NCBI GenBank assembly: GCA_003153355.1
Contig: PLYH01000001.1
Span: 162,565 to 226,564, forward strand
Source of the DNA: Candidatus Peregrinibacteria bacterium
Lineage (GTDB): Bacteria > Patescibacteriota > Gracilibacteria > UBA1369
DNA length: 64,000 bases
Direction of reading: 5' to 3'
This document shows, piece after piece, positions 24,971 to 37,717 of the stretch. The notes under the pieces were generated by a model, which ran no database searches, was not told where the DNA came from, and saw only the letters and a program-made list of their open reading frames with translations. Position 1 is the stretch's first letter, and each line of letters begins with the position of its first letter. Made by a program: the position numbers and the translations under genes.

Positions 24971-26020
24971 ATGGTACAACTTGAAAAAATTTTTCGGACA
25001 GCCGTCCAGTACAAGGCGTCCGACATCTACATCACGACAGGTTCCAAACCGGTTCTCCGCATCAACGGGGATCTGATTTTGATTGAAGAACATGCGGTTC
25101 TCACCAAAAAAATGGCCGAGGATTATCTGCTGGAACTCATGAGTGATGAACAGAAAAAATTCTTCGCCCAAAATTTGGATCTGGATTTCTCCGTAGACAT
25201 TGAAAACATCGCCCGCTTCCGCGTGAACATGTTTGTCCAGCGCAAAGGCATGGGGGCAACGTTCCGTCTGATTCCTGAAGTCGTCTACAGTCTGGATGAA
25301 CTCGGTCTTCCCGAACAGCTCAAAAGAATCCCGGAGGTAAAAAGCGGTTTAGTGATTGTCACCGGCCCGACGGGTTCAGGTAAATCAACGACCATGGCCG
25401 CAATTTTAAATGAAATCAACCTCAATGAAGCATCACACATCATCACCGTTGAAGATCCGATTGAATTTGTGCACGAAAACAAAAAATCCATCTTTGAACA
25501 GCGTGAAGTCAAAAACCACACCAAGAGTTTCCACAATGCTTTACGCGCCGTTTTACGTGAAGATCCGGACGTCGTCTACATCGGTGAAATGCGCGACCTT
25601 GAAACCATTTCGCTTGCGATTACAGCTGCAGAAACGGGGCAGTTGGTTCTTGCGACGCTGCACACCAGCGGAGCAGCAAAATCCGTAGACCGCATCATTG
25701 ACGCATTTCCGTTTGAACAGCAAAATCAGATTCGCGCCCAGCTTTCAGAAAGTCTGCGGGCCGTGATCTGGCAAAATCTTCTCAAGACCAAAGACGGCAA
25801 AGGCCGCATTGCTGCACTGGAAATCATGTTCAACAACAACGCCATCGCCAACATGATCCGCAAATCTAAAACTCATCAGATTGATTCTGCAATCGAAACC
25901 GGCTTTAAAGAAGGCATGCAGACCATGAAAAAATCCATCACGGATCTTTTGGAAGCCGACCTTATTTCCGAAGAAGAAGCCACGAACAATCTTCCCCTGG
26001 AGTTCGATGCGAATTCATAA
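24971..26020 (+). CDS. pilT: Type IV pilus retraction ATPase PilT
   Basis: The 349-residue protein has the PAS-like N-domain of PilT (KASDIYITTGSKPVLRINGDL), the Walker A GPTGSGKST (132-140), the Asp box and Walker B (LREDPDVVYIGEMRDLETI, 196-213) and the His box TLHTSGAAKSVDRIIDAFP. A late motif NNAIANMIRKSKTHQID corresponds to the PilT AIRNLIREGK segment that separates PilT from PilB. It powers pilus depolymerisation and twitching motility or DNA uptake. The rest of the pilus set is at 31707-37717, on the other strand. Confidence 0.94.
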   Translation: MVQLEKIFRTAVQYKASDIYITTGSKPVLRINGDLILIEEHAVLTKKMAEDYLLELMSDEQKKFFAQNLDLDFSVDIENIARFRVNMFVQRKGMGATFRLIPEVVYSLDELGLPEQLKRIPEVKSGLVIVTGPTGSGKSTTMAAILNEINLNEASHIITVEDPIEFVHENKKSIFEQREVKNHTKSFHNALRAVLREDPDVVYIGEMRDLETISLAITAAETGQLVLATLHTSGAAKSVDRIIDAFPFEQQNQIRAQLSESLRAVIWQNLLKTKDGKGRIAALEIMFNNNAIANMIRKSKTHQIDSAIETGFKEGMQTMKKSITDLLEADLISEEEATNNLPLEFDANS

Positions 26021-26024
26021 ACGG

Positions 26025-27236
26025 TTAAACTTTTTTAGCCGCGCAGACGAAGAATTTCAAATACTCCCCTTCCGGAAAATTAACGTTCAGAGGATGATCG
26101 GGAGGTTGATTTTTCTGTTCCAGAATAACGAGTTCCCGTTTTGCCTGCAGCGCGGATTTAAATAAAACGGTGCGGAAAAGTTCAGAAGTGACATGGGAAG
26201 AACACGAAGAACTGACCAAAATCCCGTCATCGTTTAAAAGCTGCAGAGCTTTTTGATTGAGCTTTATATAAGCATTGGTGCCGTGATTCAGGCTGTCCTG
26301 GTTTTTCACGAACGCCGGCGGATCGACGACAACGACATCATAGCGCATGCCTTTTGCCTGAGCTTCATCCAAAAAATCAAAAACGTCTTTTACCGCAAAA
26401 ATATGATCTTCGGGATCAAAACCATTCAACGTAAAATTCTTTTTCGCCAGGTCCAAAGCCGCCGATGAAATATCCACGCTCGTGACCTGTTTTGCGCCGC
26501 CGGCCAAAGCCGAAATTGAAAAACCTCCGGAATAGGAAAACAAATTGAGTACAGTTTTACCTTGAGCATATTTCCTCAAAGCAAAGCGGTTATCGCGCTG
26601 ATCCAAAAAGAATCCTGTTTTTTGTCCGCCCTGAATATCCACCAGATATTTCAATCCGCTCTCGCGGATTTCATAAGGTGACGGCGGTTCTTCCCCGTAT
26701 AAAACACCTTTCGGCATGGTTTTAAGTCCGTCCTTTTTTCTGACTTCAAGATCGCTGCGTTCATAAATGCCTTTGGGTTTCAAAACTTTCACTAATGCCT
26801 TCACCACTGTTTCACGCAAACGGTCCATACCCAGCGTATGAATTTGAACAACAAGAAAATCACCGTAAACATCAACAATCAAACCAGGCAGACCATCACT
26901 TTCACTGAACACCAGACGGAAAGCATCCGTTGTTGAAAGATCCAAAAACCGTTTCCTGAAAGCCAGTTTTTCCTGAAACTTCCCGACAAAAAAAGCTTCA
27001 TCAATGACCGCTTCTTCAAAAACAAACAAACGCAAAGCGATCTGGGAATAACTATTGTAATAACCGGTACCGACTGTGCTGCCTTCCGCATCAATCACGC
27101 TCACGAGCGAACCGTTTGCCGGCTGCTCCGCACCAGCGCCTTTTTGAACATGAGCTATGGCCCGGGAAAATACCCATGGATGACGGAAATATAAAGATTT
27201 CTCTCTGCCGGACTGTAGCTGAATTCGTGGATACAA
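26025..27236 (-). CDS. rlmI: 23S rRNA (cytosine-C5) methyltransferase of the RlmI family
   Basis: The 403-residue protein starts with a PUA domain (MYPRIQLQSGREKSLYFRHPWVFSRAI) and continues with an insertion domain and a class I SAM methyltransferase. The SAM site VLNLFSYSGGFSISALAGGAKQVTSVDISSAALDLAKKN and the motif IV region DVVVVDPPAFVKNQ are typical of RlmI. It methylates C5 of a cytosine of 23S rRNA, C1962 in E. coli. The start codon is TTG (27234-27236); no ATG fits the family N-terminus. It lies only 15 bases after the 3' end of tRNA-Ala on the same strand. A late motif SSSCSSHV contains the catalytic Cys. Confidence 0.9.
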   Translation of the reverse strand: MYPRIQLQSGREKSLYFRHPWVFSRAIAHVQKGAGAEQPANGSLVSVIDAEGSTVGTGYYNSYSQIALRLFVFEEAVIDEAFFVGKFQEKLAFRKRFLDLSTTDAFRLVFSESDGLPGLIVDVYGDFLVVQIHTLGMDRLRETVVKALVKVLKPKGIYERSDLEVRKKDGLKTMPKGVLYGEEPPSPYEIRESGLKYLVDIQGGQKTGFFLDQRDNRFALRKYAQGKTVLNLFSYSGGFSISALAGGAKQVTSVDISSAALDLAKKNFTLNGFDPEDHIFAVKDVFDFLDEAQAKGMRYDVVVVDPPAFVKNQDSLNHGTNAYIKLNQKALQLLNDDGILVSSSCSSHVTSELFRTVLFKSALQAKRELVILEQKNQPPDHPLNVNFPEGEYLKFFVCAAKKV

Positions 27237-27251
27237 TGTATTTGTGTAATT

Positions 27252-27328
27252 TGGTGGACCTTAGGGGACTTGAACCCCTGGCCTCTTCCATGCCATGGAA
27301 GCGCTCTAGCCAACTGAGCTAAAGGCCC
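27252..27328 (-). tRNA. tRNA-Ala(GGC)
   Basis: The 77-base gene on the minus strand folds as a full cloverleaf. The acceptor stem is GGGCCTT paired with AAGGTCC and includes the G3-U70 wobble that defines tRNA-Ala. The anticodon arm is CTTCC / ATGGCAT / GGAAG with anticodon GGC. The T-loop reads GTTCAAG. The 3' CCA is encoded. Confidence 0.95.
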
Positions 27329-27406: not shown

Positions 27407-27435
27407 TTGTCAAAAAAGCCAAAAAGTGATAAAAT
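27407..27435 (+). promoter_or_regulatory. Promoter of the pilin-like operon
   Basis: TTGTCA (27407-27412), a 17-base spacer and TAAAAT (27430-27435) with TG at 27427-27428. It is divergent from the tRNA promoter, 37 bases apart. Confidence 0.65.
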
Positions 27436-27459
27436 ATATAGAAATAAAAACAAACCTTC

Positions 27460-27909
27460 ATGAGCTCAAAAATTTTCAAAAACCTGACTTCAAAAACCGC
27501 TGGAATGATCGTCATGCAAACGATCATGAGTCTTATTTTGGTGATGGGAATTCATGGAGCGGTAATGGCGCAATCACCATCCCCAGCACCTCCGGACACC
27601 TCAACTTTCAATGTGACCGGTTATCTCAGTACGACAAACCAAAAACAGATCTATCTTCAAAGAGGCAACCCCATTGCAAGTTTCATTATTCAAATCATTA
27701 ATTTTCTTGTTTATACGATTGGATCACTCTGCTTTCTGGCCATCGTCATCGGCGGATTTATCCTGATGACATCGCACGGCAACGAAAACTCTCTTACCAA
27801 AGGTAAAGATATTATCAAATATGCCTTAATTGGCCTTGTCGTTGTTCTGCTTTCATACTTTATCACTGCATTTGTTCAAAGCCTCCTCTATGAAGTCCCG
27901 GGAAAATAA
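27460..27909 (+). CDS. VirB2/TrbC-like pilin membrane protein, gene 1 of 5
   Basis: The 149-residue protein has a signal peptide (about 1-37) and a short Pro/Ser/Thr segment. Two hydrophobic helices are joined by GGFILMTSHGNENSLTKGKDIIKYALIGLVVVLL. The pattern G-G-x-x-M, then G-N-E-x-x-x-x-K-G-K, is that of TrbC/VirB2-type or Mbov_0395-type pilins of type IV secretion. No other secretion-system gene is in the window. Its end overlaps the next gene by 20 bases. The operon role is unknown; surface filament or membrane pore are both possible. Confidence 0.75.
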   Translation: MSSKIFKNLTSKTAGMIVMQTIMSLILVMGIHGAVMAQSPSPAPPDTSTFNVTGYLSTTNQKQIYLQRGNPIASFIIQIINFLVYTIGSLCFLAIVIGGFILMTSHGNENSLTKGKDIIKYALIGLVVVLLSYFITAFVQSLLYEVPGK

Positions 27910-28558
27910 TAAAAAAACGGCAAAACTATTGATGACCATCGTCAGCATACTTTTCATACAGGGAAGCATGATTTTGCCGGTAGCCCAGGCAGCATCACCT
28001 TTTAAGTGCGAAGACTTGAACCCTCCTGACCCTCCTACGTCAGCCCCCTCAAAAACTCAGGGATGGATTATTAGTATTCTCGAAGAAAATATCGGTTCAC
28101 CTTCCGGGTCATCCGCTGTAAATGGGGACAACACAAGTGCCGGGAATCAGATGACATGTTTTCGAGAAAACACTACGACTCCATCAACGACTTCCGATGG
28201 TAAACCCGGCCCTTCCACGACATCATCGTTATATAAATCAACGTGCACCATAAGCCCAAGCGGAACCGTTCCTGCGGTAAGCTGCCAAAGAGTTCAGGTA
28301 TTCTTTGCCCAATCCGGGGCTCAGCTTCTCTATACTTATGTTGGACAAATTTACATATGGGCATCGGCAACCGTCGGCATCGTAGCGGTCTTTTATTTAG
28401 TATATGGCGGCATTCAAATATCAACGGCTCAGGGAGATTCCGGACGCATTGAAAAAGCCAAAGAAAAAATCATGCAGTCACTTGGAGGTCTTGTTCTGCT
28501 CTTTCTATCTGCATTGATTCTTTACACGATTAATCCGAACTTCTTCACATTGAGCTAG
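27890..28558 (+). CDS. VirB2/TrbC-like pilin membrane protein, gene 2 of 5, with long outer domain
   Basis: From ATG 27890 the product has 222 residues. A signal peptide is followed by a longer Pro/Ser/Thr-rich region with four Cys, which could form disulfides. The C-terminus has the familiar two helices with AVFYLVYGGIQISTAQGDSGRIEKAKEKIMQSLGGLVLLFLSALILY. This variant replaces GNE with GDSGR but keeps the basic turn. The start overlaps the end of gene 1. An in-frame upstream ATG at 27830 is rejected, because it would read the coding part of gene 1. Confidence 0.7.
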   Translation: MKSRENNKKTAKLLMTIVSILFIQGSMILPVAQAASPFKCEDLNPPDPPTSAPSKTQGWIISILEENIGSPSGSSAVNGDNTSAGNQMTCFRENTTTPSTTSDGKPGPSTTSSLYKSTCTISPSGTVPAVSCQRVQVFFAQSGAQLLYTYVGQIYIWASATVGIVAVFYLVYGGIQISTAQGDSGRIEKAKEKIMQSLGGLVLLFLSALILYTINPNFFTLS

Positions 28559-28559
28559 C

Positions 28560-29042
28560 ATGAAAAAAACTTTTGTGATGATCATTACAGCTGCCACCGT
28601 CTTTTCACTGGGACTGCATTTTGCTTTTGCAGATTCAAACAACACTTCCGGTGGAATAACAGTCGCCCAACCTCCGATCATTCCAGGCGGAAGTAACAGT
28701 CTGGGATCTTCCCCAACCACAGGATCACCAAGCGCTCAGGACATCATCAACACCACTCTCAGGCTGCCCGGCGTGGGCACGGATAATCCCGCAGCACTTC
28801 AGCAAAGTGTTTTACCGACCATTACGAATCTCGTCATCCAGCTTACCGGAGGTCTTGCGCTTTTATTCGTGATTATTTCCGGCGTCCAAATTTTAACTGC
28901 TTACGGCAATGAAGAAAAAATCGGGGCGGCAAAAAAAACGCTGACCTGGGCTCTCGCCGGATTAGCCATTGCAATACTTTCCTATGCCATCGTCCAAATC
29001 ATCGTTTCAATCCAAATTCTTCCTGCTCCACCAAAAACATGA
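28560..29042 (+). CDS. VirB2/TrbC-like pilin membrane protein, gene 3 of 5
   Basis: The 160-residue protein starts MKKTFVMIITAATVFSLGLHFAFAD, a signal peptide. It has a Gly/Ser/Pro-rich linker and then two helices with GGLALLFVIISGVQILTAYGNEEKIGAAKKTLTWALAGLAIAILSYAIV. The turn YGNEEKIGAAKKT is the family motif. It begins one base after gene 2 and ends with TGA overlapping the ATG of gene 4 (ATGA). Confidence 0.75.
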   Translation: MKKTFVMIITAATVFSLGLHFAFADSNNTSGGITVAQPPIIPGGSNSLGSSPTTGSPSAQDIINTTLRLPGVGTDNPAALQQSVLPTITNLVIQLTGGLALLFVIISGVQILTAYGNEEKIGAAKKTLTWALAGLAIAILSYAIVQIIVSIQILPAPPKT

Positions 29043-29506
29043 AAACTTTCGCAAAAAAAATCTCCGGCCTGGTCATGACCCTCATCATGGTATTCACCTT
29101 GAGTGCTCCATTGATGGCTCATGCTCAAGGTCCCAGCGGAAGCGGCGCTACACCGCCTCAAACAAACAATGTTTCAGGACCGAGTCCGGATGAACTTTTC
29201 AACACCGGCACTTCAACCGCAGGAAGCACATCAAAAATCGGCATCGTCGGAAATCTTTACACTACTTTCAAAAACGCCAGTTGGTCTGATATTCTTGCAG
29301 GAATCGTTAAATTTATTCTTGCCATCACGGGGGCACTGGCATTTGTTTCATTTACCTACGCCGGCGTGATGATGGTGACCGCCCGCGGCAATGAAGAACA
29401 GATCAAAAAAGGCAAAGACATCCTGCTTTGGTCAATTATTGCTCTGGCGATTATTGCAACATCTTACTCACTCGTTCTCGGCGTCTCACTTCTCAAATTC
29501 TCCTAG
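29039..29506 (+). CDS. VirB2/TrbC-like pilin membrane protein, gene 4 of 5
   Basis: The 155-residue protein has a signal peptide ending near APLMAHAQ, a Gly/Ser/Pro segment, and two helices. The second half reads FILAITGALAFVSFTYAGVMMVTARGNEEQIKKGKDILLWSIIALAIIATSYSLV. The motif ARGNEEQIKKGKDIL is the clearest of the five. It shares ATGA with gene 3 and ends 4 bases before gene 5. Confidence 0.78.
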   Translation: MKTFAKKISGLVMTLIMVFTLSAPLMAHAQGPSGSGATPPQTNNVSGPSPDELFNTGTSTAGSTSKIGIVGNLYTTFKNASWSDILAGIVKFILAITGALAFVSFTYAGVMMVTARGNEEQIKKGKDILLWSIIALAIIATSYSLVLGVSLLKFS

Positions 29507-29510
29507 CCTT

Positions 29511-30047
29511 ATGAAAAAACTTCTCGCAACAACCGGACTGCTCTTTACACTGCTTTTGGCTGCAGCTCCATTGGCATCCGCGCAGGTCGAGATCAATCCT
29601 GATTTACATCCGGTTTATGCGCCAATAGTAGTGATCCCGAAAGGAAACGCTGCAACATACGGCAACTATTATCTCCAATTGATTGCCGGCGGACTGTTAT
29701 ATCTTGCCGGTCCGGTTGCGATTCTGATTATTGCCACCGCCGGCTTGCGATACGTCACTTCGCACGGCGATCAAAACGCCCTCGAAGGAGCCAAAAAAAC
29801 TTTGGAGTGGGCCATTATCGGACTGATTGTTATCATTTTTGCTTATGCCATCGTGCGTGTTGTTATTACCGTTACGTTATCAACTGACAGCACATCTACG
29901 GGACAATCCGTAACCACACCGGGCACGCCAAGTACCAGCGGCGGAGGCGACCTTGCACCGGGTTCTCCGCAAAGCGGAGGAGGAGGAGGCATTCCGGGCG
30001 CACCACCTTCAGGGCCACCATCTGCTGAACCAAGCCAAAACGCTTAG
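29511..30047 (+). CDS. VirB2/TrbC-like pilin membrane protein, gene 5 of 5, with Gly/Pro/Ser tail
   Basis: From ATG 29511 the product has 178 residues with a signal peptide (MKKLLATTGLLFTLLLAAAP). The two helices are joined by AGLRYVTSHGDQNALEGAKKTLEWAIIGLIVIIFAYAIV. A long tail follows, rich in Gly, Ser and Pro (STSGGGDLAPGSPQSGGGGG...), absent from the other four. The tail may be an outer spacer. An upstream start at 29391 is rejected, because it lies inside gene 4. The stop shares bases TTAG with the convergent metG stop. Confidence 0.75.
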   Translation: MKKLLATTGLLFTLLLAAAPLASAQVEINPDLHPVYAPIVVIPKGNAATYGNYYLQLIAGGLLYLAGPVAILIIATAGLRYVTSHGDQNALEGAKKTLEWAIIGLIVIIFAYAIVRVVITVTLSTDSTSTGQSVTTPGTPSTSGGGDLAPGSPQSGGGGGIPGAPPSGPPSAEPSQNA

Positions 30048-31576
30048 GCTGAAACATTTTCCTGCACCTTCGGGAACAAAGGCTCGGCTTTTTCAATCTG
30101 AGTTCCGGCTTTAAGCTGGCGCCATTTGCGATCGTTGCCGTAAGAAAAAACTTCACCCTGACCAAGATAGGCCAAAACTTTTTGGGCGGTTGAAGGAATA
30201 AATGGCAGTAAAGCAACCGAAGTCAGACGGATCATTTCCAGCAAAACATAAATAACCCGCGACAAAGCGACCTGGTCGGTTTTCGCCAGAGCCCAGGGCT
30301 TGTTCGCTTCCACAAACTGGTTGGCGTTCATGGCCGTTGCCATCGTCAGTTCCAAAGCAACTTTCAAATCAAACCTGCTGATCGCCTCGTCATAACTCTT
30401 CCAGAATCTTTCAAACTCAATGCCGTAAGAAGCAATCTCGTTCATATCGGAAACCTCCGGAACTTTCCCTTCAAAATATTTGTGAGTCATTGCCAGCACT
30501 CGACTGACCAGATTGCCGTAGGTGTCAGCCAGTTCGGATTCATAAACAACCTTAAACCGCTCTTTGCTGAAATCACCGTCGTCCGTCGTGGGAATCTCTT
30601 TCAGTAAAAAATAACGCAAAGCATCCGCGCTGAACTGTTCAACAACGGTGACAGGATCAACCACGTTATTCAAACTCTTGCTCATCTTCATGCCTTCCGA
30701 AGTTATGAATCCGTGAACGTAAATAGCACGCGGCAATTGAATTCCTGCGGAAAGCAGCATGCCGATCCAGATCGCAGAATGGAAACGCAAAATATCCTTA
30801 CCGATCAAATGTACATCAGCGGGCCAATATTTTTTGAACTTCTCTTCATCGCTGCCGTAACCCGCGCCCGTAATATAGTTGGACAAAGCATCGCACCATA
30901 CATACATCACCTGATCCGGATCATCCGGCACTTCAATCCCCCACTCCAGAATCTTTTTGGGACGCGAAAAACTCACGTCCTTTAATCCGTCTTCCAGCAC
31001 CGACAAAATTTCATGTTTGCGGGCTTCAGGCAAAATCACCAGCTGGCCGTCCTGAATTCTTTTCTTGATCGTTTCTGAATATTTGGAAAGTTTGAAAAAA
31101 TAATTTTCCTCTTTAATCTTTTCCAGCGGACGTTTATGTAACGGACAAACGCCGTCCACAATTTCCTTTTCGGTTTTGAAAGATTCGCAACCGATGCAAT
31201 ACAAACCTTCATAGGAACCTTTATACATATCTCCTGTCTCAACCATTTTGGACCAGATTTTACGGGCACCTTTGATGTGATGCTCGTCGGTCGTGCGGAT
31301 AAAATCGTTATTGGAAAGATTGAGCAAACGCCCGAGTGCACGGAAGTAACCGGAATTTTCATCAACCAGCTGCTGTGGAATAACGCCCTGTTCCTTGGCG
31401 GTCTGTTCCAGCTTCATGCCGTGCTCGTCAGTGCCGGTCAGATAAAACGTATCCTCGCCGAGCAGACGGTGATACCGGGCCAAAACATCGGCCTGAATAA
31501 CCTCCATCGCAAATCCGATGTGCGGGCGCGCGTTCACGTATGCTATCGACGTCGTAATGTAAAACTTAGGATTCAT
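30044..31576 (-). CDS. metG: Methionyl-tRNA synthetase
   Basis: The 510-residue class I synthetase charges tRNA-Met. The HIGH motif is HIGF (19-22) and the KMSKS motif is at 297-301. A connective-peptide zinc region is present in reduced form (CIGCESFKTEKEIVDGVCPLH, 127-147). The anticodon-binding part includes FVEANKPWALAK. The C-terminal tRNA-binding (Trbp111) domain found in many bacteria is absent, so this is the short type. The TAA stop overlaps the TAG of pilin gene 5. It has its own promoter at 31603. Confidence 0.95.
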   Translation of the reverse strand: MNPKFYITTSIAYVNARPHIGFAMEVIQADVLARYHRLLGEDTFYLTGTDEHGMKLEQTAKEQGVIPQQLVDENSGYFRALGRLLNLSNNDFIRTTDEHHIKGARKIWSKMVETGDMYKGSYEGLYCIGCESFKTEKEIVDGVCPLHKRPLEKIKEENYFFKLSKYSETIKKRIQDGQLVILPEARKHEILSVLEDGLKDVSFSRPKKILEWGIEVPDDPDQVMYVWCDALSNYITGAGYGSDEEKFKKYWPADVHLIGKDILRFHSAIWIGMLLSAGIQLPRAIYVHGFITSEGMKMSKSLNNVVDPVTVVEQFSADALRYFLLKEIPTTDDGDFSKERFKVVYESELADTYGNLVSRVLAMTHKYFEGKVPEVSDMNEIASYGIEFERFWKSYDEAISRFDLKVALELTMATAMNANQFVEANKPWALAKTDQVALSRVIYVLLEMIRLTSVALLPFIPSTAQKVLAYLGQGEVFSYGNDRKWRQLKAGTQIEKAEPLFPKVQENVSA

Positions 31577-31706: not shown

Positions 31707-32999
31707 CTATGTTGAACACTTCGTCTGATCCGCCAGCGTACAGGTATGGTAAAGCGAAAAGTTAAAGACCGGCAGGAATGAACTCTGATTAATATTCACA
31801 TCAATGCTTTGCTCGACTTGGCCCTGGGCGGCATAACCGTTGGCGTTAATGGACGCAGCTTGACGGACCAGTCTTGGCTGGCCGGTACCCGGCTGTGCGA
31901 TAATGCGGTAGTGAATTTTGAAAAGATTCTGCGCTTCGGGATCATTAATTTCCCATCCAGGAAGCAGCACATCCGGATTCACGACATTCGTAAGCACCAG
32001 ATAATTTTGGGAATGCGTGTTGATGAAATTTTCAATCGAGCATTGGGTCATAATGTTTCCGCCGCTGCTTCCAAGCTGACCGGCGCCGAAACCGGCATCC
32101 GTTCCGTAACATTCGCGCGCGGCCCCGAAGAAAGCATTCAAAGGAATGGCCTGCTTACAGGTATATTTTGGATCAAACTGCAATACATTGCCCGGATCAT
32201 TGCCGATACACACTGGATCACCGCTGTTGGCATTAAAATCAGCAGGGAAAAAATCCGAAATCGATTCTGTTTTGGTGAGATCGGTATTGGGATGGCCGAA
32301 AATCTTCCAGCGGAGAATATCCAATTTGCTGAAATCATTGGTGTTTTGAATGCCGGAAGTCGTGACCTCGTTGTTCGTAAAATCGACGTAATATTCAATC
32401 AAAAAATTCGACACATTGGCATAAGTCACTCCATCGGGGTTCGACGAATATAGAGGAATAACCGCGGACTGACTCAAATCAAGATCGTTATACGTCGCTT
32501 CAGGTCGGTCGGTATAGACAAAATCCACATTCGTCGGCACATCGGAAGGCAGACCGATGGTATTTTTAGGGAATATCGGCTGATTGTGATCGAACGAAGG
32601 AACATTGTTAAATTCGCTGTCCGCTTTGCTCAAAATACGATAGCACGGCGGATTTGATGCATCAAAAACAAGTGACGGATCAACGCCGCTTGTTGCGTCA
32701 TCAATCGTCACATAGCCATTGGCAAAATCACATTTCCCGGTCGTCGGCGTCGGTTCATATCCAGGCAAATTCTGATGAAGATCCAGCAGCGCGTCCTCCA
32801 CCCCGGCTTCGGCTGCAAAATAAGCTTTTCCGGCGGCAACCACATCAGTGGTCTGGCGGATTTCACGGATAACAAGATCGCTCAAGCCCAAAGTGAGAAT
32901 CATTAAAATTCCCATCATCAAAATGGCAACAAGCAGCGCGCTTCCCTTTTTGACGGAACGCATGCTTTTCATCCGGATTGTGAAAAAAATATTTTTCAT
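31707..32999 (-). CDS. PilX-like pilus assembly protein
   Basis: This 430-residue protein is the last gene of the pilus operon. The N-terminus, from MRSVKKGSALLVAILMMGILM, has the PilX-type leader with cleavage after Gly; the hydrophobic helix continues as ILTLGLSDLVIREI. It is followed by QTTDVVAAGKAYFAAEAGVEDALLDL, the usual PilX continuation. The large C-terminal part is rich in Asn, Asp, Thr and Pro with several Cys, and is specific to this lineage. PilX-like minor pilins help to start pilus assembly and to promote cell contact. Four bases overlap with the upstream prepilin gene. Three Met starts are possible within the first 13 residues. Confidence 0.78.
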   Translation of the reverse strand: MKNIFFTIRMKSMRSVKKGSALLVAILMMGILMILTLGLSDLVIREIRQTTDVVAAGKAYFAAEAGVEDALLDLHQNLPGYEPTPTTGKCDFANGYVTIDDATSGVDPSLVFDASNPPCYRILSKADSEFNNVPSFDHNQPIFPKNTIGLPSDVPTNVDFVYTDRPEATYNDLDLSQSAVIPLYSSNPDGVTYANVSNFLIEYYVDFTNNEVTTSGIQNTNDFSKLDILRWKIFGHPNTDLTKTESISDFFPADFNANSGDPVCIGNDPGNVLQFDPKYTCKQAIPLNAFFGAARECYGTDAGFGAGQLGSSGGNIMTQCSIENFINTHSQNYLVLTNVVNPDVLLPGWEINDPEAQNLFKIHYRIIAQPGTGQPRLVRQAASINANGYAAQGQVEQSIDVNINQSSFLPVFNFSLYHTCTLADQTKCST

Positions 33000-33745
33000 G
33001 AGCTGGCGCGGCTATAAACTCTGGAAGAAAGCGTAGTCTGGAAGTTCAAATGGAATGTCGAGACATTGCTGTCTGCGTTCTGCACGCTGAGTGAATACGT
33101 TACCTTCGGCTGAAACTGATACTGATTAAAAGTGTAGTTATCGGAAGAGTAAGGATTGACCGGCGGATTCACGTCAAACGTCAGATTCGTGACTTTCACC
33201 AAATTATTCAGGAGGGTGCGGGAACCCGTAGCATCTACATTCGGATCCTTACCGTCATAAACATAACCGTCGGCATCACCCCACGGCGGAAGTTCAAAAG
33301 TAGTTTTTGTAGGTTCCGGCGGAGTAGAAATCTGATAACGTTTCACTTTGAGTTTCCCGTTATTTTTATCCGAAGCGTCAAACCAGTAAATAACTTTTTG
33401 GGTCTGATCTTTATTGACGATGGCGAGATAGGATGCCGCTGAGGTTGTGATCCCGTCTGCATTTTCAGGACAAGCGCTTGAACTGATTGAAGTCCCGTAA
33501 CAGTCATAATCAATGGTTCCCAGACGCATATCCTGGGCAAGCGATTCGGTAAAACTCCGGACATCGGAATACATTTTGCGGACTTGATCAGCTGCACGCT
33601 GCGAACGCACGATGCCGATATAAGAAAGCGCAACCACTCCTAAAAACGTAACAAAAATTGCGATACTGACCAAAAGTTCCACCAATGTAAACGCTTTGCG
33701 CGTCGATGATTTAGAATGCTGAATGTTAAATTTTAGATTGATCAT
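32996..33745 (-). CDS. Prepilin-like protein (PilW/GspJ type)
   Basis: The 249-residue protein has the class III leader KAFTLVELLVSIAIFV, with Ala instead of Gly before the Phe cleavage site. A hydrophobic helix follows, then a mainly beta C-terminal domain with YLAIVNKDQTQKVIYWFDASDKNNGKLKVKRYQI. The wording and size fit the PilW/GspJ group of minor pilins. It overlaps its neighbours by 4 bases on both sides. The prepilin peptidase that should cleave it is not in this window. Confidence 0.82.
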   Translation of the reverse strand: MINLKFNIQHSKSSTRKAFTLVELLVSIAIFVTFLGVVALSYIGIVRSQRAADQVRKMYSDVRSFTESLAQDMRLGTIDYDCYGTSISSSACPENADGITTSAASYLAIVNKDQTQKVIYWFDASDKNNGKLKVKRYQISTPPEPTKTTFELPPWGDADGYVYDGKDPNVDATGSRTLLNNLVKVTNLTFDVNPPVNPYSSDNYTFNQYQFQPKVTYSLSVQNADSNVSTFHLNFQTTLSSRVYSRASS

Positions 33746-34479
33746 AGCGGGCCTCCTTTCCAGTCAGTTATTTCTGACGTTAAGCGGACCTCTTTGGGAC
33801 GGCCTTGTTCCTGCCAGTCCACAACCGAACTCACGCGGTATTTTTTTGCGGTGGTCAGATCCGTCGTTCCGTAAGGCAATGCTTGAACTTCAACAAAACG
33901 GGAAAAAATCATCTTTTCCGAAGTTCCGGTTTGAGCAAAAACGCACGGATGGTACCAGACCTCATCCGGATTCGTTTGGGAATGAACAAGGCAAAGCTGT
34001 GCTTCGCTCAAAAAATCGTTCAAAGGTTTATTTTTCAAATCCTGCGTCACATCCTGAAGTTTCCACGGAGCATACTGATCACGGATTTGCGAAACATCAA
34101 CCGTTACATTCGGATCAGGCTGTCCGGGATTATCCACCTGATAAAAATCGATCAGAAAATCTTTTTTTCCGTCACTCACGGCAGGCAAACATGACCCGCC
34201 CTGAATATCCCAGACGCAATCATTTCCCACCTTTCCGTCAAAACCCGCGCCAAGAAGCCAGTCGCTGTCGCGCATATTACGGAACGCTTCCAGACCTTCC
34301 TGCGAAAGTCCGTAGGCAATAAGCGTATTGGTATTTTCCGTATTGCTGCGGATCACTGTAACCAGTAAATCCGTCGAAGCCAGAATAACCACAACCAGAA
34401 CACTGAAAGCCACAATGACTTCAACGAGCGTAAACCCTCGTTTGTTCACAACCTGCTTGTTCTGAAAAAACCTTTTCAT
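33742..34479 (-). CDS. Prepilin-like protein (PilV/GspI type)
   Basis: The 245-residue protein has the leader NKRGFTLVEVIVAFSVLVVVILAST with the normal Gly before Phe. The next stretch, LIAYGLSQEGLEAFRNMRDSDWL, is the usual continuation in PilV-like minor pilins. The rest is a beta-rich globular domain with four Cys. It starts at ATG 34477-34479, overlapping the previous gene by 4 bases. Translation coupling through the operon is likely. Confidence 0.84.
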   Translation of the reverse strand: MKRFFQNKQVVNKRGFTLVEVIVAFSVLVVVILASTDLLVTVIRSNTENTNTLIAYGLSQEGLEAFRNMRDSDWLLGAGFDGKVGNDCVWDIQGGSCLPAVSDGKKDFLIDFYQVDNPGQPDPNVTVDVSQIRDQYAPWKLQDVTQDLKNKPLNDFLSEAQLCLVHSQTNPDEVWYHPCVFAQTGTSEKMIFSRFVEVQALPYGTTDLTTAKKYRVSSVVDWQEQGRPKEVRLTSEITDWKGGPL

Positions 34480-35174
34480 GGCGAAGCGGGTGATGGATTG
34501 AATTGCGAGACCGCACCGGAAAAAGCATCAAACTGAATGCCGCGACCTTGTTGCGGAGTATTGGTGCTCAGATTCAAAACAACCTGCACAGGGTTGTCGG
34601 TCGTAGCAGGAGCAGAATGAAAATTCGGATCTATAAACTGGTTGATATCCGTGGCTTCGAGCACGTGTGCGAAAGGCGGCTTAAACATAAGAATAAAAGG
34701 CGTCGTATCAATGGATGTACCGCCCTGCAGGATGCTTTGCAAAACAATATCATCGGTAGTATCCACTATGCCATACACCACGTTTGCGGCACTGGAGGTG
34801 TCGCAATAATCGGCATTATTCTGACTGCTGGAAGCCGAAACATACGGTACCGTAATCGTTTGAATGATCGGTGTTGGAGGAACCGAAGGCGGATTCTTTT
34901 GAAATACCAAACCATAACATGAAGATCCGCTTGCACTTGGAGAACCGCCGGCTGTTTGCCGTCCAGTCTGAGCTTTGCCAGCCTGCTCTTTCATGGCGCT
35001 CATCACAGAATCCGCAGCCACACCCAGCCGCGCGCTTTGCCGCGCCGACCCGAAACTGCTCACCGCAATCGCGGCTAAAATGCCAACGATCACAATCACA
35101 ATCAAAAGCTCAATAAGGGTGAAAGCCTCTTTTGTACCGCATACCGGATTGTTGTTGAAAGCTCCACCTTGCAT
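34476..35174 (-). CDS. Prepilin-like protein (GspH/FimT or major-pilin type)
   Basis: The 232-residue protein begins with an unusually long leader (MQGGAFNNNPVCGTKEA), then FTLIELLIVIVIVGILAAIAVSSFGSARQSARLG. Ala is at the cleavage site instead of Gly. It is the most pilin-like of the three prepilins. The soluble part is long and Ser/Thr/Gln-rich. The leader contains a Cys. A shorter start is not available because the next in-frame Met is far inside. Confidence 0.8.
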   Translation of the reverse strand: MQGGAFNNNPVCGTKEAFTLIELLIVIVIVGILAAIAVSSFGSARQSARLGVAADSVMSAMKEQAGKAQTGRQTAGGSPSASGSSCYGLVFQKNPPSVPPTPIIQTITVPYVSASSSQNNADYCDTSSAANVVYGIVDTTDDIVLQSILQGGTSIDTTPFILMFKPPFAHVLEATDINQFIDPNFHSAPATTDNPVQVVLNLSTNTPQQGRGIQFDAFSGAVSQFNPSPASP

Positions 35175-35195: not shown

Positions 35196-36422
35196 CTAAA
35201 CCAATTGGGTGAGCTTGAAGATCGGCGTCATAATAGCGAGCGCCAGAAGTGCAACCGTCACACCCACAAATACGATCAGAAGCGGCTCAATCAAAGCCAT
35301 GACCTGCCTGAGCGAATAATCGATCTCCATGTCATACTGTTCGCCGACTTTCTGAGTGATAAATCCGATGGAAGCGGACTGTTCGCCAACGGCCATCATC
35401 TGCACGATGGTTTCCGGAAACAAAAAAGGCGTATCCATCAAACTCTCGGAAATTTTTTCGCCTTGCTGGACCTTGGCGATCACTTCAAACACTTTCAATT
35501 TATAAATCTCATTGCTCAAAGAGGTGGCCACAATCGTAAGCGCCTGAACAACCGGCAAACCGGATTCAATCAAAATACCCAGGGTACTTACAAAACGCAG
35601 AATCAAAACTTTACGCAAAAGCGTGCCGACAACCGGAATACGAAGTTTAAAAAGATCCCACTGGTATCTGCCGTCTTCGGTGGAAATGTAGTAACGGATG
35701 AACAAAAAAATCACTGCGATGCTCAACAAGATGGCCCACCAGAAGTTGGACATCACATAGCTGATACCCACCAGAAGTTTCGTTGCAAACGGGAGCTGAT
35801 CAGGCTTTAAACCTCCTTCATTCAAAAGCTGAAGCAGACTTGGAATAACCCAGATCATCATGCCGGAACCGGCTAAAATCAAAACAACCAAAACCACAAC
35901 CGGATAGACCGAAGCCGTCACCAGTTTAGTCTGGAGTTCATGGGATTTTGTCAGCTGAACCGCTAACCGCGCGAGCATTTTGTCCAAATGGCCGGCCGCT
36001 TCACCCGCTTTAACCACGCCGATTTCAACTTCACTGAACACCTGAGGAAACCGAGCCATCGATTCCGACAAATTTTTTCCCTGTGAGACGGAATGAGCCA
36101 CGGTATTTAAAACCCGGCGGAACCTTTCGCTTTCCGTCCTGCGGGCTAACATTTTCAACGCCTGAATCGCGGGAATTCCGGCATCGACCATCACGGCCAG
36201 AAGCTGGAAAAAATAAGCTTTCTCCTTCAGAGGAACGTTACTGTGATCGATCAGAAAATCGTTCAAGCGTGTCGAGAGCGACTGACGGGAACTGTCATAG
36301 ATGCCGTAAATAATGTCAGGACCCTTCTGCGCTGAATTTTTGCTCAATTTCTTCAGCACCGAGTCGGCTGAAGATTTTTTTTGAGAAGTTGGCGGTTGTT
36401 GCGGGAGTTGTGAGATTTCCAT
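35196..36422 (-). CDS. pilC: Type IV pilus inner-membrane platform protein PilC
   Basis: The 408-residue protein has two T2SSF domains, each with the F-x-x-x-L-A-x-M-V-x-A-G-x-P pattern. Copy one reads KAYFFQLLAVMVDAGIPAIQALKMLARR. Copy two reads LILRFVSTLGILIESGLPVVQALTIVATS. The late motif EKISESLMDTPFLFPETIVQMMAVGEQSASI is also standard. It anchors the ATPases PilB and PilT and drives pilin exchange. The N-terminal 50 residues are soluble. It lies 17 bases after pilO and 21 before the first prepilin. Confidence 0.93.
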   Translation of the reverse strand: MEISQLPQQPPTSQKKSSADSVLKKLSKNSAQKGPDIIYGIYDSSRQSLSTRLNDFLIDHSNVPLKEKAYFFQLLAVMVDAGIPAIQALKMLARRTESERFRRVLNTVAHSVSQGKNLSESMARFPQVFSEVEIGVVKAGEAAGHLDKMLARLAVQLTKSHELQTKLVTASVYPVVVLVVLILAGSGMMIWVIPSLLQLLNEGGLKPDQLPFATKLLVGISYVMSNFWWAILLSIAVIFLFIRYYISTEDGRYQWDLFKLRIPVVGTLLRKVLILRFVSTLGILIESGLPVVQALTIVATSLSNEIYKLKVFEVIAKVQQGEKISESLMDTPFLFPETIVQMMAVGEQSASIGFITQKVGEQYDMEIDYSLRQVMALIEPLLIVFVGVTVALLALAIMTPIFKLTQLV

Positions 36423-36439
36423 AGCAAAGATAAAACAGC

Positions 36440-37021
36440 TTAAATACGATCCAAATAATAAGTTTCCATATTGACGTTAAAATTCACGCGCGGAATGCCC
36501 GCATCGGTGGTGCCTGTCTGGACGCTTACCGTATTCACGGTCAGTTTGCGCTGATTTCCTTCCACGCCTTTCAAAAACCCAAGCAGTCCGGACATGTCTC
36601 CGGTCAAATTGGCGTTCACGGTAGCGCGCTTAATGCGTTCAGTGCTCACCGTATTAATGCTGAAATTCACGCTGTTCAAAACAATGTCATTGGCTTTGCC
36701 GATTGAGGTCAAATCAGTAATCAGCTTATCCTGTTCCAAACGCTGAGGGATCGCATTCAAAGCGGTCTGTTGCGAAACTTCGGTAGTCTGGTTCATGCTC
36801 TGCTGGATAGTTTGAAGATTTTGCAATTGAGCGGCCAGCTGTTGCTGCTGCTGCATTTTGTCATCGCGTCCGAGACTCAAACTGGTCACGTCATCCCAGA
36901 GAGGTTTTACATAAAAAACCGCTCCCAAAAGAACTACGATAAAAATCAAAAGGGAGATAAGGGATTTATTTGAAGAACGGGGAGGTGCTGACGGGGCTGA
37001 TGCCATTGTTGTGGAAGCCAT
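36440..37021 (-). CDS. pilO: Pilus alignment protein PilO
   Basis: The 193-residue protein has one membrane helix (about 20-43, SLISLLIFIVVLLGAVFYV), a coiled-coil stretch rich in Gln (KMQQQQQLAAQLQNLQTIQQSM) and a ferredoxin-like end (VNANLTGDMSGLLGFLKGVEGNQRKLTVNTVSVQT). This is the PilO plan, and position between pilN and pilC agrees. It pairs with PilN in the membrane. Sequence similarity in this family is low, so the name rests on layout and context. Confidence 0.82.
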   Translation of the reverse strand: MASTTMASAPSAPPRSSNKSLISLLIFIVVLLGAVFYVKPLWDDVTSLSLGRDDKMQQQQQLAAQLQNLQTIQQSMNQTTEVSQQTALNAIPQRLEQDKLITDLTSIGKANDIVLNSVNFSINTVSTERIKRATVNANLTGDMSGLLGFLKGVEGNQRKLTVNTVSVQTGTTDAGIPRVNFNVNMETYYLDRI

Positions 37022-37042
37022 AGCATGAAAAATTAAAAATTA

Positions 37043-37717
37043 TTATTGTTGAGTACGTGGAACCTTGACCGCAGGTGAAACTGACGGAGTTACAGTCTGC
37101 TGGGTTGAACCTGCGACCGGAACTTGTGCATTGGTCACTGACCCGGAGGTAGGAAGCTGTTCTCCGTACGTAAGATTAAAGACAAAAGACAAAAGATCCT
37201 GACCGCTTTCATTCACCCCATGGCTGATCGAAGGAATATAAGCGTCTTTAAAATAAGCGCTGTTGTTGAATGTGTTGATAAGAGTAGACACATCAGCGAA
37301 CGGATCGGCTGAGCCGGGAATCGTTTGGGCATTGAGCGCAAGTTTACCGCCGGCCGAACCGGAATATGTCAAAAATTCAACCCTAGGCTTTTGGGTGAGA
37401 GGATCAACCGGAAGAATATCCTGGAGAGACTTAATGACTTCTGACCAGTGAATTTCCGTTTTCTGCAAATCAGCAAGCCATTGCTGGGCATACTGCTGAC
37501 CTTCGATGTTCTGCGATTGCAGGTCTACGATCTGAGTGTTCAGCGAAGCGATTTCTGTATCCAGCTGATTTTGCTGCTCCTGGATTGCCGATTTGGCAAA
37601 AGAAAGATACACTGCTGAAGCAATGAGACCTACCAAAAGAACGATGGAAAGGATAAAAAGAACGGGACTATTTTTTTGGGTCTCCACTGCAGCAGAGACC
37701 GGCTTTCTGATTTCCAT
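37043..37717 (-). CDS. pilN: Pilus alignment protein PilN
   Basis: The 224-residue protein has a membrane helix (about 18-42), a coiled coil (QEQQNQLDTEIASLNTQIVDLQSQN) and a globular end with WSEVIKSLQDILPVDP, the classical PilN wording. The INLLP motif that binds PilM in other bacteria is not visible in the N-terminus, and pilM is not found here. It is the first gene of the pilus operon and has its own promoter at 37747. Confidence 0.8.
   Translation of the reverse strand: MEIRKPVSAAVETQKNSPVLFILSIVLLVGLIASAVYLSFAKSAIQEQQNQLDTEIASLNTQIVDLQSQNIEGQQYAQQWLADLQKTEIHWSEVIKSLQDILPVDPLTQKPRVEFLTYSGSAGGKLALNAQTIPGSADPFADVSTLINTFNNSAYFKDAYIPSISHGVNESGQDLLSFVFNLTYGEQLPTSGSVTNAQVPVAGSTQQTVTPSVSPAVKVPRTQQ

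Follow-up and report, generated by a model that had tools for sequence, protein, structure and literature searches.

A conserved, ordered set of five VirB2-like pilins in the type IV pilus gene region of a Peregrinibacteria lineage

Multi-pilin arrays have already been published for Patescibacteria: Quinonero-Coronel et al. (2025; PMC12102498) surveyed 441 arrays of 2–11 divergent VirB2-like pilins, with a mean identity within arrays of ~25%, found a pilin near virB4 in 1135 of 1948 surveyed assemblies, and suggested that the multiplicity reflects versatility towards hosts. Ca. S. epibionticum ML1 encodes six divergent VirB2-like pilins (PMC12857230), and it cannot grow epibiotically without the pilins of its T4SS cluster (Wang et al. 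2023, PMC10633639). The small subunits of conjugative pili of the VirB2/TraA type are embedded in the inner membrane until they are assembled; T4SS pili are five-start structures, that is, stacked pentamers, and the R388 VirB6, itself a pentamer, is their proposed platform (PMC5018250, PMC9259494). The archaeal Ced and Ted systems are domesticated relatives of T4SSs with VirB2-like pilins, and Ced cannot import DNA without type IV pili (PMC9905601).

Here we describe a tandem array of five open reading frames (g1–g5; 27460–30047, + strand) in a window of 64,000 nucleotides, the whole stretch of DNA analysed (C2:162565-226564), from a Candidatus Peregrinibacteria genome of 1.456 Mb in seven contigs that is 99% complete. 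Like the published Patescibacteria arrays, it consists of tandem divergent pilins, and PF18895, the family that its members match, was among the search profiles of the survey (PMC12102498). It differs in that its five classes are fixed across an order, whereas the survey suggests versatility by variation, and in that it lies within a type IV pilus region and not beside virB4. As in the series of ML1, an epibiotic patescibacterium, several VirB2-like pilins that have diverged from one another are clustered together, but the ML1 pilins are encoded with T4SS genes. VirB2/TraA pili are described as made of one pilin and the Ced/Ted pilus is built from one pilin type, whereas the window array encodes an ordered set of five distinct, putative subunits.

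Much as an earlier note on this DNA had claimed, the five genes overlap or nearly touch: g1 and g2 overlap by 20 nt and g3 and g4 by 4 nt (ATGA), and the other gaps measure 1–4 nt (Table 1). The note had also proposed that each protein has a signal peptide followed by a variable linker and two helices around a turn, a layout borne out by hydropathy in all five. Each starts with basic residues and a hydrophobic segment at its N-terminus; a polar linker with much Pro, Ser, Gly and Thr follows, and then a helical hairpin with a polar, basic turn between two long hydrophobic helices. The hairpin domains share 19–33% pairwise identity. The single Cys-rich member of that description is g2, which carries a small Cys-containing beta domain ahead of the hairpin and ends in a YTINPNFF motif, and the member with a Gly-Pro-Ser tail is g5. 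AlphaFold2 models agree with the helix-turn-helix layout both for g2 (mean pLDDT 82) and for a relative's fusion of positions 3 and 4, which was modelled with the aim of seeing a subunit interface and whose relative orientation is not confident (pTM 0.32). Foldseek searches with these two models gave no significant match, nor did profile searches of the PDB give a significant sequence match.

Table 1. Coordinates of the pilin array and of flanking features in the window.
Feature	Position	Strand	Description
pilT	24971..26020	+	349 aa; TIGR01420 442 bits; the genome's sole PilT (own-genome search)
RlmI-type methyltransferase ORF (by inspection)	26025..27236	-	403 aa; between pilT and the array
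tRNA-Ala(GGC)	27252..27328	-	ARAGORN, Rfam
Promoter-like match	27407..27435	+	TTGTCA-17-TAAAAT, TG before second hexamer; consensus match only
g1, position-1 T4SS_pilin	27460..27909	+	149 aa; signal peptide, Pro/Ser linker, hairpin; PF18895 33.0 bits
g2, position-2 T4SS_pilin	27890..28558	+	222 aa; PF18895 36.6 bits
g3, position-3 T4SS_pilin	28560..29042	+	160 aa; PF18895 34.3 bits
g4, position-4 T4SS_pilin	29039..29506	+	155 aa; PF18895 35.4 bits
g5, position-5 T4SS_pilin	29511..30047	+	178 aa; C-terminal Gly/Pro/Ser tail; PF18895 35.3 bits
metG-like gene (by inspection)	30044..31576	-	convergent to the array; homology cluster c0
Four type IV prepilin-like genes	31707..35174	-	three with N_methyl; one PilX_N-like, below cut-off
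PilC (T2SSF), PilO, PilN	35196..37717	-	

All five proteins exceed the curated cut-off of PF18895 (T4SS_pilin; 26.6 bits), with scores of 33–36.6 bits. None reaches that of PF04956 (TrbC/VirB2; 27.9 bits), for which g1 scores 15.3 bits, g5 scores 18.3 bits and g2–g4 have no match, and matches to the NCBIfam Mbov_0395 pilin-like family likewise stay below cut-off. On these profile scores, g1–g5 are thus members of the T4SS_pilin family, and 'VirB2-like' denotes a resemblance; the window pilins differ from VirB2/TraA in that PF04956 stays below cut-off and PDB sequence matches are not significant. The common assignment to PF18895 rejects an origin from five different unrelated families, one of the two tests that the earlier note had set for itself, and leaves its claim of one VirB2-like family standing.

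To compare the array across the order, the locus of the best gene-5 match was fetched from 32 relatives in the same order; two (G002 and G015) were left out because their arrays are truncated at contig ends, which with the window gives 31 loci. Exactly five hairpin domains are present in 31/31 untruncated loci, a count that covers the fetched loci and does not include eight further relatives of the set. Domains 3 and 4 form a single protein in six loci of this sample. Best matches between genomes fall at the same position at a rate of 0.85, against 0.20 in shuffles (maximum 0.232, n=200), and 1825 of 1933 reciprocal best hits join the same position. In a FastTree phylogeny that also holds 11 other T4SS_pilin domains from the host genome, positions 1, 2, 4 and 5 each form a clade of exactly 31 domains (31/31), and 29 of the 31 position-3 domains fall within a clade of 30. 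Mean identity is 35–50% within a position and 24% between positions. Position 2 has three invariant Cys residues and a nearly invariant C-terminal YTINPxFF, in which N, P and the first F of FF are found in 31/31 loci.

This tree of position clades rejects recent tandem duplication. The earlier reading of a graded set, and not a simple gene duplication, is strongly backed, because position-specific orthologue classes are kept in order. In the close pair L066/L067, dN/dS is 0.02/0.28 at position 1, 0.06/0.35 at position 2 and 0.03/0.15 at position 3; such ratios, well below 1 in close pairs, indicate that selection on the array is purifying. Judged by these comparisons, the array is not a loose amplification, and its fixed number, order and class are new here.

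A second sample, which shares some organisms with the first, was obtained by scanning the position-2 alignment over 84,980 species genomes. It yielded 68 named loci, almost all from Candidatus Peregrinibacteria, Peribacteria or Gracilibacteria, and exactly five domains are found in 44 of the 48 untruncated ones. For 35 five-domain loci without any domain in common with the training set, position-specific profiles placed 173 of 175 domains in the expected class, the exception being an apparent swap of positions 1 and 2 in L092. One locus (L102) has six domains, the extra one of position-1 type, and another (L127) has a single domain. Positions 2, 3 and 4 look like a core, because three Peribacteria-type loci (L106, L114 and the cut L101) keep only position 2 and a fused 3+4, with five as the rule for the order. 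A natural fusion of positions 4 and 5 (L108:8955-9764) joins the 3+4 fusions in suggesting that operon neighbours are adjacent in the assembly. This recurrence of five versions in an unchanged arrangement throughout a whole order of ultrasmall bacteria makes it probable that they are fixed parts of a single cell-surface machine and not surface variants that can replace one another.

The array sits within a type IV pilus gene region. The earlier statement that it stands without other secretion genes was wrong because type IV pilus genes flank it, with pilT upstream and minor pilins, PilC, PilO and PilN downstream; it was right for VirB4 and VirD4, neither of which is nearby. Genes for a VirB4-like ATPase and for a PrgI/VirB3-like protein are present elsewhere in the genome. 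PilT is one of three GspE-type ATPases in the host genome, and the other two are taken to be PilB-like from their greater length or a far higher score to the general profile. The methyltransferase-like gene between pilT and the array has no homologous neighbour at the same place in the relatives' loci. The promoter-like match, whose -35-like hexamer at 27407 marks where the earlier note began its operon, ends 24 nt before g1; such matches are no commoner than in shuffled sequence. On the other side, the metG-like gene flanks the array in 31/33 loci, the window included.

Among the 68 named loci, pilT lies upstream on the same strand in 37, and in 27 of these it is within 25 nt of the first pilin or overlaps it. 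This spacing makes co-transcription of pilT with the array probable in many relatives. In a second clade (L105, L111, L112, L118-L126, L128), metG adjoins the array on the same strand and no pilT was found in the fetched flank. The link with pilT is thus real in one large lineage, yet it is not required, and a universal pilT operon is rejected. Eight relatives (G017, G020, G022, G023, G030, G032, G033 and G034) have two kinds of PilT: one with at least 55% identity to that of the window, which in several cases adjoins the array, and one with 42–49% identity, encoded elsewhere. Some genomes have the second kind only, and in three of them (G014, G029 and G040) the array is without an upstream pilT.

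The VirB4-like ATPase (968 aa; P-loop_TraG 83 bits) is encoded at C2:24454-27357 among gyrase-like genes (by inspection), ~163 kb from the array (virB4 at C2:24-27 kb, array at C2:190 kb), and the PrgI/VirB3-like gene at C7:4978-5247 (54 bits). The VirB4-like gene is single-copy in 36/41 genomes. No such gene could be detected in G014, G026 and G034 (at least 97% complete, with MAG gaps possible), all three of which retain the array, and strict co-occurrence of array and VirB4 was not seen. Two TraG/VirD4-like matches above cut-off (G000:C1:2725-3705 and C1:27133-28155; 35 and 39 bits) mark ATPases that are possible coupling proteins.

The host genome contains 16 T4SS_pilin domains at five places. 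Five belong to the array; the other 11 lie in a cluster on C6, a tandem pair on C5 and single genes on C5 and C7, and none of them is in the fetched 20 kb around virB4. As regards the second refuting condition of the earlier note, a T4SS elsewhere that has VirB2 genes of its own, the further domains speak for it and their absence near virB4 speaks against it. In the C6 cluster (L025:4850-11944; G000:C6, ~19.8-26.9 kb), two proteins (353 and 348 aa) each consist of three hairpins. Encoded next to them are a 1636-aa protein that opens with one hairpin and goes on with seven PKD domains, and a protein of 814 aa that has six PKD domains; similar open frames of ~350 and ~1600 aa with pilin domains occur in many relatives. 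A lone T4SS_pilin (L027:8755-9123), in which no signal peptide is obvious, lies ~1.6 kb upstream of an ftsA-like gene (by inspection).

The gene neighbourhood raises an alternative that we consider unlikely, namely that the five hairpins serve the type IV pilus machine as accessory membrane proteins and are made together with its retraction ATPase PilT. The position of the array in the pilus gene region, the probable co-transcription with an upstream pilT in many relatives, the minor-pilin clusters found beyond metG in many loci and the retention of the array where VirB4 is not found all speak for it. However, in one clade the array adjoins metG and its fetched flank is without pilT, the family is VirB2-like and not prepilin-like, with no match in g1–g5 to N_methyl, the class III signal peptide of type IV prepilins, and the comparable pilin series of Saccharibacteria lies in a T4SS cluster (PMC10633639).

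Neighbourhood alone proves little, because metG, although unrelated, also stays next to the array. The five genes might by the same token be ancient paralogues that work in separate assemblies and are held together only by the stable gene order of reduced genomes. We regard this as quite improbable given that all five genes are tightly spaced, with overlapping starts, and given the fusions between neighbours and the co-retention in nearly all loci.

In other Patescibacteria families, the number of array members varies even within one family, later members match each other across positions as if duplicated within a lineage, and class order has weak or no correspondence with the Peregrinibacteria array. 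The exception is family f34 of the same phylum (L145, L146 and L147), in which the first array domain is position-2-like at 67–69 bits and outscores the next class by 19–22 bits; because f34 arrays start in this way, class 2 may predate Peregrinibacteria. A variable pilin repertoire has reportedly been proposed for the VirB2 paralogues of Bartonella. That the window array is such a repertoire, with alternative major pilins for different hosts or for escape from recognition, would fit the low identity between members, their variable linkers, the behaviour of arrays in other families and the published suggestion for Patescibacteria (PMC12102498), but it is very improbable in Peregrinibacteria, where number, order and class are fixed and close pairs are under purifying selection. 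Host-range variation is disfavoured by position agreement, position clades and low dN/dS, and changing copy number, diversifying selection and shuffled order, the signs of an antigenic repertoire, were not seen in the Peregrinibacteria array.

We therefore favour a single machine, in which g1–g5 are probably five obligate, non-interchangeable VirB2-like subunits of one T4SS-like envelope assembly. Each subunit would be exported by Sec, the linker or head ending up outside and the basic turn inside, an orientation that fits VirB2-type pilin topology, and would have a place of its own in a ring, stalk or pilus that is heteromeric. Subunit 2 would bear a head domain, probably stabilised by disulphides, and subunits 3 and 4 would be neighbours. 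The assembly would probably be driven by the stand-alone VirB4-like ATPase and the PrgI/VirB3-like protein encoded elsewhere, and would be co-regulated with the retraction motor of the type IV pilus; contact with a host through the pilus would thereby be linked to the opening of a conduit or an attachment structure. We infer joint assembly, VirB4 power, cooperation with the type IV pilus and the host-contact role from family, synteny and conservation, on which all functional statements here rest, in MAGs that are incomplete.

A more specific geometry, which we put forward as doubtful, is a hetero-pentamer that arose from a five-fold symmetric machine. Each class would supply one of the five strands in a pilus or stalk of VirB2-like kind, with one copy of each in every layer in a fixed order and subunit 2 contributing the head. 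The proposal is tentative because the match between five classes and the five places of a pentameric ring may be coincidence, some Peribacteria-type loci have only three domains and the interface was not modelled confidently. If true, it would to our knowledge be the first T4SS-type pilus in which different pilins are combined in a fixed set.

In the one Patescibacteria system in which they were tested, tandem VirB2-like pilins proved essential; their multiplicity has hitherto been read as variation towards hosts. That number, order and class are fixed over many Peregrinibacteria families favours a heteromeric machine, whose five subunits are testable singly. In a very large bacterial group, uncultivated and mostly host-dependent, the link with pilT suggests a concrete coupling of type IV pili with a T4SS-like structure.
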